DNA from: a virus
Reading direction: 5' to 3' (one strand)
DNA length: 43,820 nt
IMG/VR virus record: IMGVR_UViG_3300042923_000471
Location: 1-43,820 of that record
How positions within the stretch are numbered: the first letter of the stretch is position 1; each line of letters begins with the position of its first letter. Below, in pieces: positions 4,800 to 14,103 of the stretch. Position numbers and translations under genes: made by a program. The notes below the pieces were generated by a model. It was not told the origin of the DNA. It did not search any database and was given only the letters and a program-made list of their open reading frames with translations.

Positions 4800-6209
4800 T
4801 TAAACAGGTAGCAGATCAAGTATCTGCCAGCTGTTTTTTTCTTTGTTTATGACTATTTTACGGAACATAGATTGGACAGCCTGTTTTTGTAAGTCGGCAT
4901 CGATGTACTCCCAGTTCTCCTTTAACTGAAGCATAGTCTGCTTAACTTCCTCTGTAGATTGCTCAGGTTCATATACAGCGTCGTCTTCACGTATCTTGGA
5001 ATAGATGTCATTCATACGTTGTTCTTCCTCTTCAATCATCATGGCATAGTCATCTGGGGATAACTTTCCGTCACCTAATGCCAGCATCCAGTTTTTACGA
5101 CGCTTATTTGATATCTCAACTTCCTTTTGCATATCGCGCTTTTCTTTCTTTTCAATCTTCTTCGGTTGTAGCCCCTCATCCAGCATCAGAACCTTTTCCA
5201 ATACAATTCTGTTTAGCTCACGTTCAGATATAGATTTGGCATCGCACGTCTTATGTGCATACTGGTTGTAGCAGCGATAACCCTTATACGTCTTATCCCC
5301 ATGTACAGATGAGTTACCCACATAGTTAGCCCCACATAAGGAGCAACGCACAATGCCACTGTAGGCGTAATCAAACGACCGCTTAGACATATGCCCTGTA
5401 GATCTCCTCTGGACGTACTGCTGAGCCTTTGCGTAGTCCTCGCGAGATATAATCGGATCATGAGAACCCTCGCGGATAATACGTTGATCCTCAGGCCAAT
5501 GTTCAGGTTTAAAATGGTTATACCCTGCGTAAGTGGGATTCGAAATGATTGTACGTACTCGCTTGCTGTCCCATTTACCACCTTGTTTACCTGTGGAAAA
5601 GTTGTTCATATCTCTAGCGATGTTGGTTACACCGATGCCAGCTAAGTATTTTTTAAATACCGTCCGAATGAGATTAGCTTCTTCTTCCACGATTATGAGG
5701 TTTTGTTCAGGATCAAGGTCATATCCAAGCGGCGCATGAGACATATGGATGCCACCGCCTTTGGCTTTCGTAATAAGACCCTTCAATGTTTCCTCGCGAA
5801 GATTCTCCAAATAGATTTGCGCCCATATCCCCGAGAAGAATAAGAAAGCCTTACCCATAGGTGACCGTGTATCAATCTCTTCCGATCCCTGAGCTGCAAT
5901 AATCAAACGAACATCTAAACGATTAATCATGTCGATGAAGCTGTATAAGTCTCCCAAGTTCCTGCTAAGCCTGTCCAGCTTATGGACGAGTATAGTATCA
6001 AACTTCTTATCTTTCATGTCCTTGAGAAGCGCCTGAACGCCCGGACGTTTGAATGAACCACCGCTGATACCAGGGTCGGAGTAGACACGGTAAAGTTGCA
6101 GTTGCTTACGTTCCAGAACATCCATTAGGATATCCTGCTGCGCTTCTAAGGAAAACCCTTCTTCAACCTGTCTTTCAGTCGAAACCCTCGTATATATGGC
6201 TGCGCGCAT
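4800..6209 (-). CDS. int: Large serine integrase
   Basis: The protein has 469 residues. The N-terminal resolvase domain (about 1-145) shows YTRVST with catalytic Ser10, SLEAQ, and VHKLDRLSRN (about 75-84). A Recombinase domain follows (about 155-265). A zinc ribbon near 285-325 has C-x2-C and two later Cys. A long coiled coil (about 340-440) matches the motif that controls integration versus excision in this family. It joins phage attP with host attB through a Ser-DNA intermediate. The ATG at 6209 has AAAGGAGAG upstream. No excisionase (recombination directionality factor) gene was identified. Length is typical of A118/TP901-1-like integrases. Confidence 0.95.
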   Translation of the reverse strand: MRAAIYTRVSTERQVEEGFSLEAQQDILMDVLERKQLQLYRVYSDPGISGGSFKRPGVQALLKDMKDKKFDTILVHKLDRLSRNLGDLYSFIDMINRLDVRLIIAAQGSEEIDTRSPMGKAFLFFSGIWAQIYLENLREETLKGLITKAKGGGIHMSHAPLGYDLDPEQNLIIVEEEANLIRTVFKKYLAGIGVTNIARDMNNFSTGKQGGKWDSKRVRTIISNPTYAGYNHFKPEHWPEDQRIIREGSHDPIISREDYAKAQQYVQRRSTGHMSKRSFDYAYSGIVRCSLCGANYVGNSSVHGDKTYKGYRCYNQYAHKTCDAKSISERELNRIVLEKVLMLDEGLQPKKIEKKEKRDMQKEVEISNKRRKNWMLALGDGKLSPDDYAMMIEEEEQRMNDIYSKIREDDAVYEPEQSTEEVKQTMLQLKENWEYIDADLQKQAVQSMFRKIVINKEKNSWQILDLLPV

Positions 6210-6303: not shown

Positions 6304-6352
6304 TGTCAACTCCATAATTTAGGTGGTAAATAAAATAGCTAAATATTATAAT
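6304..6352 (+). promoter_or_regulatory. Probable promoter region of the agr-like operon
   Basis: A TATAAT hexamer stands at 6347-6352, about 33 bases before the first gene; no clear -35 is present, which would fit activator control. Upstream, TGTCAACT (6304-6311) and TCCATAATT (6311-6319) both recur before the TATAAT at 8133-8138, on the other side of the operon. Confidence 0.4.
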
Positions 6353-6384
6353 AAAATACGACAATATTCTACTTTGAAACGAGC

Positions 6385-7059
6385 GTGTATATGGATACAA
6401 TGTATTATTTAGTACTCGGATTCCTTGACATAATTGCTGTTTTTGCTTTGTTTTTTAAAGTTTATAGATGGCCTTTTTGGAACTATGCAAAGGAAATTTT
6501 TATCATTTCAGGGATATTGTCAGTTGTTTCCTGGGTAGATCGAATTATTCTTAATATTCCTGATTATGATGCAGCGATACAGTATTTTTTGATTATCATT
6601 TCGTTGAGGTATGTTTTCTTAGTAAGGTGGAATAACTCGTTTACCGTAGCGACATTTGGGTATTTAACCTTTGTTTGTACTCAAAACATTGTATATTACT
6701 CACTTCTATCAACTGGCGTTGTCGGTATATTCGATGCTCAATTGCCACAAGGATTCGGTATTTATTTAATTCAAGTTTCTAACCATATTGTTGATTTAAT
6801 CATCTGTCTTGTTCTTTTTTATGGAGGATACGGATTTTCATATCTAACCGAACCTCCTCATGAACTTAGATATAAGGAGAGAAATTCTAGATCTGGAAGG
6901 GCGATAAGCTTAATTAATATACTAGCAGCGGTTGCGTTCACAAGCACTATGTACTGGATAACTACCTATCATAACCACATTTACATGATTGTTCTTTCAA
7001 CAGTCCTTGCATTGGTTTTACTAACGGTATTATCAAGCAGGAGGGATATAGAACAATGA
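6385..7059 (+). CDS. Multi-pass membrane protein, AgrC-like sensor without kinase domain
   Basis: The product has 224 residues, starting at GTG 6385 (ATG at 6391 is an alternative; the ribosome site is weak). Six or seven hydrophobic helices are spaced at about 7-24, 36-55, 63-82, 87-110, 124-148, 173-192 and 198-218, with a short charged tail. The layout resembles the N-terminal peptide-sensing part of AgrC-type receptors, but no HisKA or GHKL ATPase region follows; the gene ends by ATGA overlap with agrB. In streptococcal LytTR systems a membrane protein holds a LytTR regulator inactive, and that role is inferred here. Homology to AgrC was not tested. Confidence 0.65.
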   Translation: MYMDTMYYLVLGFLDIIAVFALFFKVYRWPFWNYAKEIFIISGILSVVSWVDRIILNIPDYDAAIQYFLIIISLRYVFLVRWNNSFTVATFGYLTFVCTQNIVYYSLLSTGVVGIFDAQLPQGFGIYLIQVSNHIVDLIICLVLFYGGYGFSYLTEPPHELRYKERNSRSGRAISLINILAAVAFTSTMYWITTYHNHIYMIVLSTVLALVLLTVLSSRRDIEQ

Positions 7060-7571
7060 GAGACCCAATAGATGTTATATCCGAAAAAATATCCACATAT
7101 AAATTTTTCAGGGGACAGAAAAGCAGAGAAGTCACCGAATATATTTACGCAATAGGGATAAATATGGTGGGAGTTATTCTCATAACTGCTTTGTTTGGTA
7201 AATTACTAGGTACTTCTAACCATGCCATAATAGCTATGATGTCTTTTTTTGTACTGCGCAAATTCTCGGGAGGCTTCCATTTTCGCTCTTTAACTCTTTG
7301 TATGGTAGTTACAGTTGGTTTATTTTCAATTATTCCCTTTATTAATATTTCCACAGTGTACATTCAGCTGATAAATGTAATCTCAATAACCATTCTTTTA
7401 CTATTCGCACCGAACAATATGAAGCAAATTCCGATAATATTTCAATCACCTCTAAAGGTAATTAGTGTTATAATAGTAATGACCAATTTTTTCATAATCG
7501 ATAGCAATATTGCGCTTTCATTCTTTGCTCAAGCGATTCTGCTTATTCCAACCAGGGAGGTGAAACAATGA
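7056..7571 (+). CDS. agrB: AgrB-family propeptide-processing membrane protease
   Basis: The protein has 171 residues with several transmembrane helices after about residue 32. The signature RKFSGGFH (68-75) is followed by C82, giving the His75/Cys82 pair with the 7-residue spacing of the catalytic His/Cys in staphylococcal AgrB. AgrB removes the C-terminal tail of AgrD and joins the peptide into a ring. The start ATG overlaps the upstream stop and its own stop overlaps the agrD-like start (both ATGA), so the operon is translationally coupled. Catalytic residues look intact. Length is slightly short of S. aureus AgrB (about 189). Confidence 0.9.
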   Translation: MRDPIDVISEKISTYKFFRGQKSREVTEYIYAIGINMVGVILITALFGKLLGTSNHAIIAMMSFFVLRKFSGGFHFRSLTLCMVVTVGLFSIIPFINISTVYIQLINVISITILLLFAPNNMKQIPIIFQSPLKVISVIIVMTNFFIIDSNIALSFFAQAILLIPTREVKQ

Positions 7572-7696
7572 AAAATTTTATCAGACAAGCTATGAATTTT
7601 GCTACAGTAACTTCTTTGGCATTCGCATTCGTTCTTACTATTGTTCCAGCTAAAGGTTCGATCGGTGACAAGGAAATTCCAGCGGAATTAGAGTAG
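7568..7696 (+). CDS. AgrD-like autoinducer propeptide without ring cysteine
   Basis: This is a 42-residue peptide. The N-terminus is amphipathic/hydrophobic (residues 1-27), followed by a short middle and the charged tail EIPAEL (36-41), which matches the EVPKEL processing tail of S. aureus AgrD. Aligned on that tail, the residue that forms the thiolactone (Cys28 in S. aureus) is Ala28, and no Cys occurs in the peptide. The only nearby hydroxyl is Ser31. The signal may therefore be linear, a small Ser lactone, or cleaved elsewhere. It is linked to agrB by ATGA overlap. Confidence 0.75.
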   Translation: MKNFIRQAMNFATVTSLAFAFVLTIVPAKGSIGDKEIPAELE

Positions 7697-7702
7697 GTCC
7701 AT

Positions 7703-8053
7703 ATGGACTTTAATTGTGTCGATATGAAAACAAACGTTTATTCGGAGATATCCAAAGACAACGTTTTTTTTCTGTATAAAGGTGGTAAGTACCAATTATT
7801 AGTTCATTCCGATCAAGGTACTGGCTTGGAGTGGGAAATGATGGGTTCTGTAAATGCTGCTTCAAATTTTTTAAAGCAGTTTGGTTTTGTTCGCCTGGAT
7901 ACAAATATTATTGCTAACTCCGAAAAGCTTGATGGTAGAAGTAAGGAGAAACTATTCGGTAAATACAAGGCGTATTTCACTGACGGTTCAAGCGTTGGCG
8001 TATCAAGGACTGCATACGATTTATATTTAAAACACCTGCCACTCGTTGAATGA
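7703..8053 (+). CDS. Stand-alone LytTR-type DNA-binding regulator
   Basis: The protein has 116 residues and no receiver domain. The fold of LytTR proteins is visible: a beta-rich start (DNVFFLYKGGKYQLLVH, about 20-36), then GFVRLDTNIIANSEKL (about 61-76), which corresponds to the family's gFlrvHrSyiVNl motif, and AYFTDGSSVGVSR (about 90-102). AgrA-like regulators carry this domain behind a phosphorylated receiver; here it is alone, as in LytTR regulatory systems controlled by a membrane partner. It follows the propeptide by 6 bases. The ribosome site (AGTAGGT) is weak. The stop lies in a terminator stem. Confidence 0.72.
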   Translation: MDFNCVDMKTNVYSEISKDNVFFLYKGGKYQLLVHSDQGTGLEWEMMGSVNAASNFLKQFGFVRLDTNIIANSEKLDGRSKEKLFGKYKAYFTDGSSVGVSRTAYDLYLKHLPLVE

Positions 8054-8066
8054 GTGGTTTTTTTTC
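8039..8066 (+). terminator. Terminator of the agr-like operon
   Basis: CCACTC (8039-8044) pairs with GAGTGG (8052-8057) around seven bases, and eight T follow. The stem includes the stop codon of the LytTR gene. Confidence 0.85.
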
Positions 8067-8086
8067 TTATCACATATAACATGGCG

Positions 8087-8138
8087 TGTCAACTACCGAA
8101 AAGGTATACCTTTCTGTATGTTCCATAATTGGTATAAT
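8087..8138 (+). promoter_or_regulatory. Promoter region with perfect palindrome, after the agr-like operon
   Basis: TATAAT (8133-8138) is preceded by TCCATAATT (8122-8130), a perfect 14-bp palindrome AAAGGTATACCTTT (8100-8113) and TGTCAACT (8087-8094). Two of these words also occur before the agr-like operon. The palindrome sits where an activator or repressor would act. No protein gene on the plus strand follows; a structured region does. Confidence 0.45.
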
Positions 8139-8144
8139 TTATGA

Positions 8145-8317
8145 TAGGGTATGTGTACGGCGATCAATTGCCAGAAAAGATAGAAAATTGTAATACGTTT
8201 ACAACACTTGTCGAACTCGCAACCTAGAATCGGGATTAGGTTGCATAATTTGTAAGTCGTAGTTAGCAATTTGCTAAGGCAATCTTAGGGAGGAAGCGTC
8301 AGCTTCGACCGATTGCC
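8145..8317 (+). ncRNA. Possible structured regulatory RNA in the switch region
   Basis: Downstream of the 8133 TATAAT no gene is seen on this strand, but several perfect hairpins follow: TTGTAA/TTACAA (8188-8204), GCAACCTA/TAGGTTGC (8219-8244), TTAGCAA/TTGCTAA (8263-8277), and GGCAATC (8278-8284) with GATTGCC (8311-8317) enclosing GAAGC/GCTTC (8293-8306). The last lacks a T run. It could be an sRNA, or the stems could be operators and a terminator for the opposing gene. Confidence 0.3.
8263..8277. promoter_or_regulatory. TTAGCAA-type operator-like palindrome, distal copy
   Basis: TTAGCAA-T-TTGCTAA is a perfect inverted repeat. The same half-site builds the palindromes at 9212-9226, 9242-9253 and 9488-9504 in the repressor/early promoter region, about 1 kb away. 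Confidence 0.5.
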
Positions 8318-8318
8318 C

Positions 8319-8531
8319 TTATTCATTGACCCAAACATAAAGATCAGTAGGCGAACACTTTAGAATTAAAGCAGCTCTCATCTCCATAATAAATGTAAAT
8401 TTCCTTACCCCGCTGGCAAGCTGTGATGCGTATGCCTCAGATATATTCAGCTTTCTTGCAAAGTCAGCTTGAGACATATGCCTTGATTCTAATAGTTCAG
8501 ACAATCGGCACCTCCCGAATTGGAGGGCCAT
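8319..8531 (-). CDS. Cro/C1-type helix-turn-helix regulator, 70 aa
   Basis: This leftward gene starts at ATG 8531 with AAAGGTGAT upstream. The HTH lies at about residues 9-65: SELLESRHMSQADFARKLNISEAYASQLASGVRKF, in the style of XRE regulators, with nothing beyond the DNA-binding domain. A compact Cro/repressor role in the lysogeny switch is likely. Its promoter overlaps an inverted repeat (8611-8627) shared with the divergent small gene at 8662. Its 3' end abuts the structured region after the agr-like operon. Confidence 0.82.
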   Translation of the reverse strand: MALQFGRCRLSELLESRHMSQADFARKLNISEAYASQLASGVRKFTFIMEMRAALILKCSPTDLYVWVNE

Positions 8532-8661: not shown

Positions 8662-8808
8662 ATGGATGATGAAGCTCAGAAAGAATTTAAAGATTTGTTA
8701 AGACAATTAAGTCTAAAAGAAATTAATGATTTAACGGAAAACTTTAAACACGTCACCTGTTATGATTCCTTACTTATCTTTCTTCGCCATTCTACGCATA
8801 AAGTCTAA
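8662..8808 (+). CDS. Possible 48-aa protein, convergent with the repressor gene
   Basis: An ATG frame follows the rightward TATACT promoter; the ribosome site (GAGGCGG) is moderate. The product begins acidic and helical (MDDEAQKEFKDLLRQLSLKE). The last 39 bases overlap the 3' end of the opposing repressor gene. It may be a real switch peptide, or the transcript may act as antisense to the repressor message. Confidence 0.45.
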   Translation: MDDEAQKEFKDLLRQLSLKEINDLTENFKHVTCYDSLLIFLRHSTHKV

Positions 8809-9114
8809 TAGATTTTCCTTTTCGTCTTTATTTAAACGCGAGAATATTTCTGCTGCTTCTAATACCTGATCGTCTGCCAGGTATCCTATGAGGCTTTCTT
8901 TCATTTGATCTCCAACTTTTCCAAGTAAGTTATCTGTCGAAATCCCGAAAACATCTGCAAACTTCTTTAATTCTTGTGACTCAACAGGTCTCTTGTTCGA
9001 TTCAATCCTCGATAAAACACTATTATTCATTCCTACTTTTGCGGATAACTCTAGCTGAGTCCACCCCTTGCGCTCTCTGAGTTGTTTTATTTTAGAACCA
9101 GTCTTCCCACTCAC
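8770..9114 (-). CDS. C1-like repressor, HTH type
   Basis: This leftward gene uses GTG at 9114; a GTG at 9120 is also possible, but the AAAGGTGG site is 9 bases from the first and only about 3 from the second. The N-terminal XRE helix-turn-helix (about residues 5-60: IKQLRERKGWTQLELSAKVG, then NNSVLSRIES) is followed by an acidic/helical C-terminus (about 65-114) lacking any peptidase motif, so induction is not by LexA-type self-cleavage. Position opposite the early genes, across a divergent promoter, fits the lysogeny repressor. Length is near 115 residues, like short Gram-positive phage repressors. Confidence 0.85.
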   Translation of the reverse strand: MSGKTGSKIKQLRERKGWTQLELSAKVGMNNSVLSRIESNKRPVESQELKKFADVFGISTDNLLGKVGDQMKESLIGYLADDQVLEAAEIFSRLNKDEKENLLDFMRRMAKKDK

Positions 9115-9158
9115 TAACACAACCCACCTTTCTAAATCGACAATAATAATTTTATCAC

Positions 9159-9205: not shown

Positions 9206-9253
9206 TTGACTTTGCTATAATAGCAAGTTATATTGTGACTATAGCAATTGCTA
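9206..9253 (+). promoter_or_regulatory. Early rightward promoter with TTGCTA operators
   Basis: TTGACT (9206-9211), a 17-bp spacer and TATATT (9229-9234) form a strong sigma-A promoter. The spacer is filled by the perfect repeat TTGCTA-TAA-TAGCAA (9212-9226), and a 12-bp palindrome TAGCAATTGCTA (9242-9253) covers the start site. Repressor bound here would shut off the early operon. Confidence 0.8.
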
Positions 9254-9280
9254 ATTCAGCAAAAGATAGGAGGTCCACAG

Positions 9281-9508
9281 ATGAAAGAATTAAATTTAGT
9301 ATTAATTAAAAAGAGAAGAAAAGAATTGCGGTTGTCTTTGTTGGAAATGGCTGTATTACTAGGGTTTAAGAATGCATCAACTTATTATAAGTATGAAATT
9401 GGACAATCTAAATTCAAGGCAGAACATATTCCGATTGTTGCATCTAAACTAAAACTTAAAATGTCAGAGATTTTTTTTACCCCCGAATTTGCTAAATTAG
9501 CAAATTAG
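9281..9508 (+). CDS. Cro-like helix-turn-helix protein, first early gene
   Basis: The product has 75 residues from ATG 9281, set by AGGAGG 7 bases upstream; an in-frame ATG at 9248 lies inside the operator and is unlikely. An XRE-type HTH is seen at about residues 6-60 (LIKKRRKELRLSLLEMAVLL, then NASTYYKYEIGQ). As the first gene after the repressed promoter it is the best Cro candidate. Its last codons coincide with another TTGCTAA palindrome (9488-9504), so it may be subject to feedback within its own 3' end. Confidence 0.85.
   Translation: MKELNLVLIKKRRKELRLSLLEMAVLLGFKNASTYYKYEIGQSKFKAEHIPIVASKLKLKMSEIFFTPEFAKLAN
9488..9504. promoter_or_regulatory. Operator-like palindrome in the 3' end of the Cro-like gene
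   Basis: TTTGCTAA-A-TTAGCAAA is perfect over 8-bp arms and shares the half-site of the early operators. It could be an auxiliary repressor site that assists looping. Confidence 0.55.
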
Positions 9509-9525: not shown

Positions 9526-10290
9526 ATGAAACTAATCGAAATCAACGGCGTTCGCGGTTATATAGACGAGAACGGAACAGCTCAGTTAAATCTTGAAGAC
9601 ATATCTAGAGGTTTGGGATTCATTCAAAACAAAAACAACGTTGCTTATGTTCGTTGGGATCGGGTTAACGGTTACTTATCCGATATGGGTTTTCCCCAGT
9701 TGGTGGGGAAAGATTTTATACCTGAAAATGTGTTCTACCGTTTGTCTATGAAAGGAGAAACAGAATCTGCTATCAACTTCCAATCGAAAGTGGCTGATGA
9801 AATTCTTCCTAGCATACGAAAAACAGGGTCTTACAGTGTTCAGCATAGAATGCCGCAATCGTTTGCAGAAGCGCTCGAAGGTTACGCAGCTCAACTAAGA
9901 ATATCTGAAGCACTGGACAATGAACGAAAGCAGTTGGCCGCAAAGGTTGAAACTGATCGACCAATGGTACTGTTTGCTGAATCTGTTCAAGTGTCTGCTG
10001 ATTCCATCTTAATAGGTGAACTGGCAAAGCTTCTTAAACAAAACGACATCAACATTGGTGGAACGAGATTGTTCAAACTTCTACGAGAGGAAGGATACCT
10101 GATGAGCAAAGGTGATCAGTACAACATGCCTACGCAACGTTCAATGGACCTGAAGATCATGGAGATTAAGCCAGGAACACGAGGTGGTTCAAATGGTGCA
10201 GTACATATCACCCGAACGACAAAGATAACTGGTAAAGGTCAAATTTACTTCATTAATAAGTTTAAAAATGCGTTACACCTAGTCAAATAA
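9526..10290 (+). CDS. Phage antirepressor (Bro-N/KilAC type)
   Basis: The protein has 254 residues, ATG after GAAGGAGATG. The N-terminal part (about 1-105) looks Bro-N-like: residues ISRGLGF, RWDRVNGYL, and the closing VADEILPSIRKTGSY, which is typical of Bro-N ends. A helical linker precedes a C-terminal KilAC/ANT domain (about 140-254) with ADSILIGELAKLLKQNDINIG and the TKITGKGQIYF end. Such proteins antagonise the phage repressor and favour lytic growth. The gene follows the Cro-like gene in the early operon, the usual site for an antirepressor. Confidence 0.9.
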   Translation: MKLIEINGVRGYIDENGTAQLNLEDISRGLGFIQNKNNVAYVRWDRVNGYLSDMGFPQLVGKDFIPENVFYRLSMKGETESAINFQSKVADEILPSIRKTGSYSVQHRMPQSFAEALEGYAAQLRISEALDNERKQLAAKVETDRPMVLFAESVQVSADSILIGELAKLLKQNDINIGGTRLFKLLREEGYLMSKGDQYNMPTQRSMDLKIMEIKPGTRGGSNGAVHITRTTKITGKGQIYFINKFKNALHLVK

Positions 10291-13905: not shown

Positions 13906-14103
13906 ATGGATGAACGAACTTGGTGTTGGGATGATCCGATACTTGGAGCACTACAGCAAGAGGAACGTGCTAAGCTTTCGCCATTTCCTGATGCGGATGA
14001 TGATTTTATTGCACTAGAAAAAGCATTGGAACGTTACAGAGTCTTACATCCAATCGTACAAGTATCAAAATTAATAGGGGTGTCCGTGTGCAAAAACTTA
14101 TAG
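13906..14103 (+). CDS. Hypothetical protein, 65 aa
   Basis: ATG 13906 has AGGTGGT upstream. The N-terminal half is acidic with two Trp; the C-terminus is hydrophobic and includes a Cys. No family was recognised. It overlaps the start of the next gene by 16 bases. Confidence 0.5.
   Translation: MDERTWCWDDPILGALQQEERAKLSPFPDADDDFIALEKALERYRVLHPIVQVSKLIGVSVCKNL

Follow-up and report, generated by a model that had tools for sequence, protein, structure and literature searches.

Can an agr-type signaling system operate when neither its histidine kinase nor the receiver domain of its regulator is present? This question is raised by an operon in the IMG/VR virus record IMGVR_UViG_3300042923_000471, all 43,820 bases of which make up the window analyzed here. 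At positions 6391–8053, the listing of open reading frames confirms a compact rightward operon of four genes, encoding in order a seven-helix membrane protein, AgrB, a 42-residue AgrD-like peptide, and a bare LytTR protein, with a terminator at its end. The features of the operon are the following.

6391..7059, plus strand: putative kinase-less membrane receptor, 222 aa, seven predicted membrane helices (phrog_15604, AlphaFold model, homology with locus L018)
7056..7571, plus strand: AgrB-type membrane cysteine peptidase, 171 aa, His75/Cys82 (PF04647)
7568..7696, plus strand: cysteine-free AgrD-like signal precursor, 42 aa (by its position, the IPAELE tail, and related peptides encoded after AgrB at other module loci)
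7652..7663, plus strand: predicted signal core Lys29-Gly30-Ser31-Ile32 (register set by the tail's conserved Pro; cut inferred)
7703..8053, plus strand: predicted LytTR-only DNA-binding protein without a receiver, 116 aa (PF04397 family, profile, AlphaFold model)
8038..8058, plus strand: intrinsic terminator overlapping the 3' end of the LytTR gene

The genes overlap by 4 bp at the receptor/AgrB (7056/7059) and AgrB/peptide (7568/7571) joints, and 6 bases separate the peptide gene from the LytTR gene (7696 to 7703). For the receptor gene, ATG 6391 is the preferred start over the alternative GTG 6385, because the N-termini of its relatives read M-D-x-L-Y. A preliminary description of this DNA had seen four coupled genes with their own terminator here and no kinase or receiver. 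The open reading frames, their overlaps, and the terminator at 8038–8058 bear out the former, and the latter agrees with zero matches to Response_reg, HATPase_c, and HATPase_c_5 across the whole 43.8-kb record. Searched at the DNA level, neither the module region nor positions 14000–38000 had a relative in a set of 50,697 phage records.

Signal production is the most familiar part of the system. The AgrB protein matches PF04647 at 57 bits (cut-off 23), and its His75 and Cys82, already singled out in the preliminary description, are invariant throughout the alignment. The peptide does have the AgrD-type tail that was reported for it (IPAELE), and a P-x-E-L tail is common to related peptides, but the canonical Cys or Ser is absent and a conserved Lys is found instead, which had been overlooked. 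The window peptide also matched no curated AgrD model. A set of 40 peptides was aligned on the conserved tail Pro, with the cut placed as in Staphylococcus aureus AgrD (the register of L068 was set by eye). By analogy with that register, AgrB is predicted to cut the window precursor before Gly33, which puts Ala28 at −5 and Lys29 at −4, so the residue that would close a thiolactone or lactone is missing.

Across the 40 peptides, Ser or Cys occupies −5, the classical ring position, in 12, while Lys is found at −4 in 29, including every peptide without Ser or Cys at −5. Both occur together in a single peptide (L014), and none has neither. In nearly all Lys-type peptides, position −1 is Ile, Leu, Met, Val, or Phe and position +1 is Gly, and Cys is absent from all six phage peptides checked. 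The signal cores vary among phages (KGSI, KFGL, KVFL, KVTI, KVSI, KFTI, and KAVV), which is what signaling groups would predict. In the AgrB tree the Lys and Ser/Cys classes are intermixed, with four label changes, at least two of which are forced by well-supported branches; because the classes mix in this way, one has probably replaced the other more than once.

The agr thiolactone is a 16-membered ring (PMC4979651). When ring sizes are computed, an ester from Cys or Ser at −5 and an amide from the Lys side chain at −4 both come to 16 members. The chemistry suggests that Lys(−4) may act as an alternative nucleophile and yield a macrolactam; a linear peptide may be the product instead. Taken furthest, this would define a lysine-closed class of agr-type signals, in which the side chain of the conserved Lys(−4) takes over the acyl intermediate from AgrB, a 16-atom macrolactam (with the core Lys-Gly-Ser-Ile here) replaces the 16-atom thiolactone or lactone, and the signal is read free of phosphorylation, both in phages and in their hosts, by a kinase-less AgrC-type receptor controlling a bare LytTR protein. 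We put this full proposal forward tentatively, as a possibility that is more doubtful than probable. The literature searched, where coverage of subscription journals was limited, yielded no natural lactam signal of this type.

The membrane protein belongs to phrog_15604 (3e-52) and has no Pfam match. Its AlphaFold (AF2) model has seven long helices and a pLDDT of 86.8, and structure searches with it found no solved or viral structure alike. Positive residues, as read from the sequence, are found at the C terminus and in the loops that follow helices 1, 3, and 5, so by the positive-inside rule the topology is probably N-out/C-in. In Chengkuizengella axinellae (L018, 4367–5743), the homologous sensor domain (E 4.8e-11 against the receptor family profile) forms the N-terminal part of a 458-aa HATPase histidine kinase, and the fusion gene adjoins AgrB and an AgrD-like gene encoding a Lys-type peptide; no LytTR gene is found within the 1.7 kb read downstream. 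Since this one relative fuses the sensor to a kinase, the most fitting reading of the membrane protein is an AgrC-type receptor lacking the kinase part. Such a kinase occurs in only 1 of 32 aligned receptors, as this fusion.

Receptor genes are also found in other arrangements. Tandem copies stand ahead of AgrB in L004:3541–4942, L005:3538–4942, and L016:4601–6008, perhaps with one receptor for the element's own signal and one for a foreign signal. At L051, L052, L054, and L056 there are receptor genes with no AgrB or LytTR gene within about 1.5 kb, and these loci share a conserved neighborhood, recognized by eye, with CorA-like and SprT-like genes.

The LytTR protein of the window scores 18.8 bits against PF04397 when searched alone, below the cut-off of 22.6. 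PF04397 is matched at E 0.1 or better by every one of the 23 aligned family members, the family profile matches the LytTR domain of AgrA (E 1.5e-9 to 1.7e-9), and the AlphaFold model has a pLDDT of 93.3, with LytTR folds as its only confident structure matches. The LytTR-type domain proposed from the sequence is thus upheld, its predicted identity secured by the family profile and a confident model. In phrog_15081, KT361651 HARRISON_41, and NC_022980 DAVIES_48, members of this LytTR family bear the labels "peptidase" or "dipeptidyl aminopeptidase," which look wrong. One phage contig (L015:3608–5712) has a homologous receptor, AgrB, and a Ser-type peptide, with a 251-aa receiver-LytTR protein as its output; no kinase gene adjoins this module.

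Scans of viral and genome contigs with AgrB alignments found module loci; scans of these contigs with single proteins or a receptor alignment, where run, found no relatives. The preliminary description had called for a search for the same gene order in other phages, and the four genes are found in that order in Brevibacillus phages Abouo, Davies, and Emery, in Paenibacillus larvae phage Harrison, and in further IMG/VR contigs, as well as in Paenibacillaceae genomes and in one species of Bacillaceae. A bare LytTR gene follows the peptide gene at 38 of the 49 non-clostridial AgrB loci examined, near copies included. Within one bacterial family the receptor is present in 58 of 104 genomes, with up to five copies per genome. 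The module nearest to that of the window belongs to Paenibacillus athensensis (LytTR protein 55%, receptor 56%), whose AgrB is the sister of the window AgrB (support 100/99), and the AgrB proteins of Abouo, Davies, and Emery are distant at 37–39% identity. Because many chromosomes carry the module and its closest relative is that of P. athensensis, the sequence comparisons mark it as mainly a bacterial system that is carried by phages too. What had been framed as a phage operon is indeed carried by phages, but it is not specific to them.

The module has a recurrent place in phage genomes. The genes around it in the window are the following.

4800..6209, minus strand: large serine recombinase (integrase; PF00239, PF07508, PF13408)
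8319..8531, minus strand: small HTH protein, convergent with the operon (PF13443, PF01381)
8770..9120, minus strand: cI-like HTH repressor candidate (PF01381; phrog_8)
9248..9508, plus strand: Cro-like HTH protein (PF01381)
9526..10290, plus strand: antirepressor with KilAC domain and weak Bro-N (PF03374; phrog_130)

The phage carrying the operon is probably temperate. With a serine recombinase 5' and HTH genes 3', the operon does lie between integrase and repressor genes, as first described. The order of recombinase, module, HTH repressor-like gene, and cro-like gene is shared by the window phage, Abouo, Davies, L010, L012, and L013; part of it is found on the repressor side in L006, L007, and L009 and on the recombinase side in L015. 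The recombinases beside phage modules are of differing kinds, serine and tyrosine. This placement points to the lysogeny region, where cargo genes often gather too, and the conserved position is what suggests a role in lysogeny.

The DNA flanking the operon has several possible control elements.

6329..6358, plus strand: exact 9-bp direct repeat AATAAAATA, copies at 6329 and 6350 with a 12-bp spacer (LytTR-type spacing; AT-rich)
8087..8113, minus strand: conserved intergenic element, a −35-like TTGACA on the minus strand with the palindrome AAAGGTATACCTTT (8100–8113)
8209..8215, plus strand: single Spo0A-box-like heptamer TGTCGAA, enriched in the module flanks of relatives

The AATAAAATA region has four overlapping repeat pairs, where 0.07 were expected, making the repeat a possible operator. 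Direct repeats of the kind found in LytTR Regulatory Systems (9 bp, 11–13 bp spacing, immediately ahead of the operon −35) were rejected as a family feature, since upstream conservation is absent in most relatives. The palindrome AAAGGTATACCTTT is preserved in P. athensensis; it occurs once in the window, which rules it out as a set of phage repressor operators. Directly behind the operon terminator, many relatives have a strong convergent promoter-like TTGACW-17-TATAAT (10–12 of 12 matches) aimed into the operon, and in the window version TTGACA is intact and the −10 is poor. The heptamer TGTCGAA reaches 1.50 per kb in the flanks of modules versus 0.10 per kb in the rest of those loci (about 15-fold), often standing 91–130 bases past the operon stop codon. 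In the divergent loci L003, L006, L010, L012, L021, and L023, it follows the operon at comparable distances. The single, differently oriented copy in the window is possibly there by chance. The convergent promoters and the enriched heptamer in the flanks of relatives make antisense control and a link to the host starvation regulator plausible for the module family, and no more than a possibility for this phage. Between the operon and the small HTH gene, positions 8138–8330 are non-coding and hairpin-rich (fold z −2.9), with an extended −10 TGGTATAAT upstream, and possibly encode a small RNA. The stretch has no Rfam match; it was considered as an RNAIII- or AimX-like output RNA, and this was dropped for want of conservation.

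Known systems each share part of this design. Like staphylococcal agr (AgrBDCA), the module has an AgrB with His and Cys, a precursor with an acidic PxEL tail, a polytopic receptor, and a LytTR output. It differs in that the window has no AgrC kinase on the receptor, no AgrA receiver on the LytTR protein, and no Cys or Ser at the ring position of the peptide, where Lys stands one residue later. For Abouo, Davies, and Emery, an AgrB, a putative AgrD, and membrane proteins lacking a kinase were already recorded by Hargreaves et al. 2014 (PMC3901668). Their genes are homologous to those of the window and stand in the same order, forming the same kind of module; the accessible text of that paper mentions neither their LytTR gene nor the Lys-type peptide. 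No description of the four-gene kinase-less module was found in the literature searched, again with limited coverage of subscription journals. The agr3 locus of Clostridioides difficile phage phiCDHM1 is likewise phage-borne with AgrB, AgrD, and a receptor gene, but according to the accessible text its AgrC retains the HATPase domain and it has no response regulator gene (PMC3901668).

The LytTR Regulatory Systems of streptococci (LRS; HdrRM, BrsRM) pair a bare LytTR regulator with a polytopic membrane protein, have no phosphorelay genes, and give a precedent for a LytTR regulator held under a membrane inhibitor (PMC6193735). The module differs from them in having the membrane gene first, where LRS operons begin with the regulator, in including AgrB and a peptide, and in lacking a DUF3021-type protein; DUF3021 is absent from the matches of 32 receptor relatives, and the conserved upstream direct repeats of LRS were not found for the module family. 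By sequence and gene order it is not an LRS member, and conserved repeats do not place it there either. Arbitrium (AimR/AimP/AimX) is alike by analogy only, as phage peptide signaling adjoining lysogeny control. The arbitrium receptor is a cytoplasmic RRNPP (TPR) protein with a cognate secreted hexapeptide, and family searches matched no module protein to TPR or RRNPP families. The hybrid of agr and LRS that was first proposed therefore stands in part. What is conserved as a unit, in many phages and genomes, is AgrB/AgrD-like production of the signal, a membrane receptor with no kinase, and a LytTR output protein with no receiver; what does not hold is membership in LRS by sequence. The observation behind it was right, and its interpretation, that the peptide relieves membrane inhibition of the LytTR protein and informs lysogeny, is plausible, conjectural, and too centered on phages.

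We favor, with moderate confidence, a complete kinase-less agr-type circuit in a probably temperate phage. AgrB would process the 42-residue precursor, with the predicted cut before Gly33, and release a short peptide that the seven-helix AgrC-type receptor would bind. Instead of using a phosphorelay, the receptor would act on the bare LytTR protein by direct contact, as suggested by the co-occurrence of the two and by analogy with HdrM/HdrR, most likely retaining it at the membrane until peptide accumulates. The freed LytTR protein would then alter transcription, judging from position only probably that of its own operon and of the neighboring lysogeny control region. Such a circuit would let lysogens gauge the number of surrounding lysogens. 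In its favor are the four-gene order conserved in phages and chromosomes, the absence of a kinase and receiver, the confident receptor and LytTR models, the variation of the signal core among phages, and the recurrence of phage copies between repressor-like genes and recombinases that are unrelated to one another. Counting against it are chromosomes that have receptor genes but no LytTR or AgrB gene nearby, the receiver-LytTR genes (with a kinase gene at L031) beside the module at two loci, the receiver-LytTR partner of the receptor in L015, and the poor conservation of LRS-type repeats upstream.

A host could also supply what the operon lacks. The phage receptor would then work via a histidine kinase and an AgrA-like regulator that both belong to the host, with the LytTR protein as an accessory or competitor of that regulator. 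Such a route has been proposed for the agr genes of phiCDHM1. At L031 (Brevibacillus gelatini), genes for a receiver-LytTR protein and a kinase directly follow the module, and at L032 a receiver-LytTR gene adjoins it, so a host kinase may take part; the receiver-LytTR output of L015, with no kinase gene nearby, fits as well. Most loci, however, have no kinase or receiver gene beside the module, and its regular partner is a bare LytTR gene, which leaves this route unlikely. The cassette might instead serve lysogenic conversion or interference, its peptide or receptor disturbing related agr-like systems of the host or altering host behavior, and would then take no direct part in lysogeny. Host genomes in the same family hold as many as five related receptors each, making cross-talk likely, and with a terminator to itself the cassette looks like a self-contained unit. 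Its recurrent placement between recombinase and repressor in unrelated phages speaks against this, though cargo genes gather there too, and we regard it as possible but improbable. That the operon is the decaying remnant of a bacterial agr operon after kinase loss is very improbable. The sub-cut-off Pfam score of the LytTR protein and the kinase fusion kept by one chromosomal relative would fit decay, but the frames are open, the translational overlaps and terminator are in place, and the same kinase-less architecture is retained across very divergent phages and genomes.

The kinase-less circuit presents the module as a new variant of agr-type signaling, with the lysine-type peptide as its newest element. 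If this reading is right, agr-type quorum sensing can operate without a two-component relay, and phages carry such signaling beside their lysogeny switch. The alternation of lysine and serine leads to a sharp chemical prediction, the same ring size with a different bond. If it is true, AgrB chemistry extends to lactams, which should exceed thiolactones in stability. Many unstudied copies of the module are found in one large bacterial family, and the kinase-less relay together with the lysine peptide suggests a new route for communication between viruses and their hosts.
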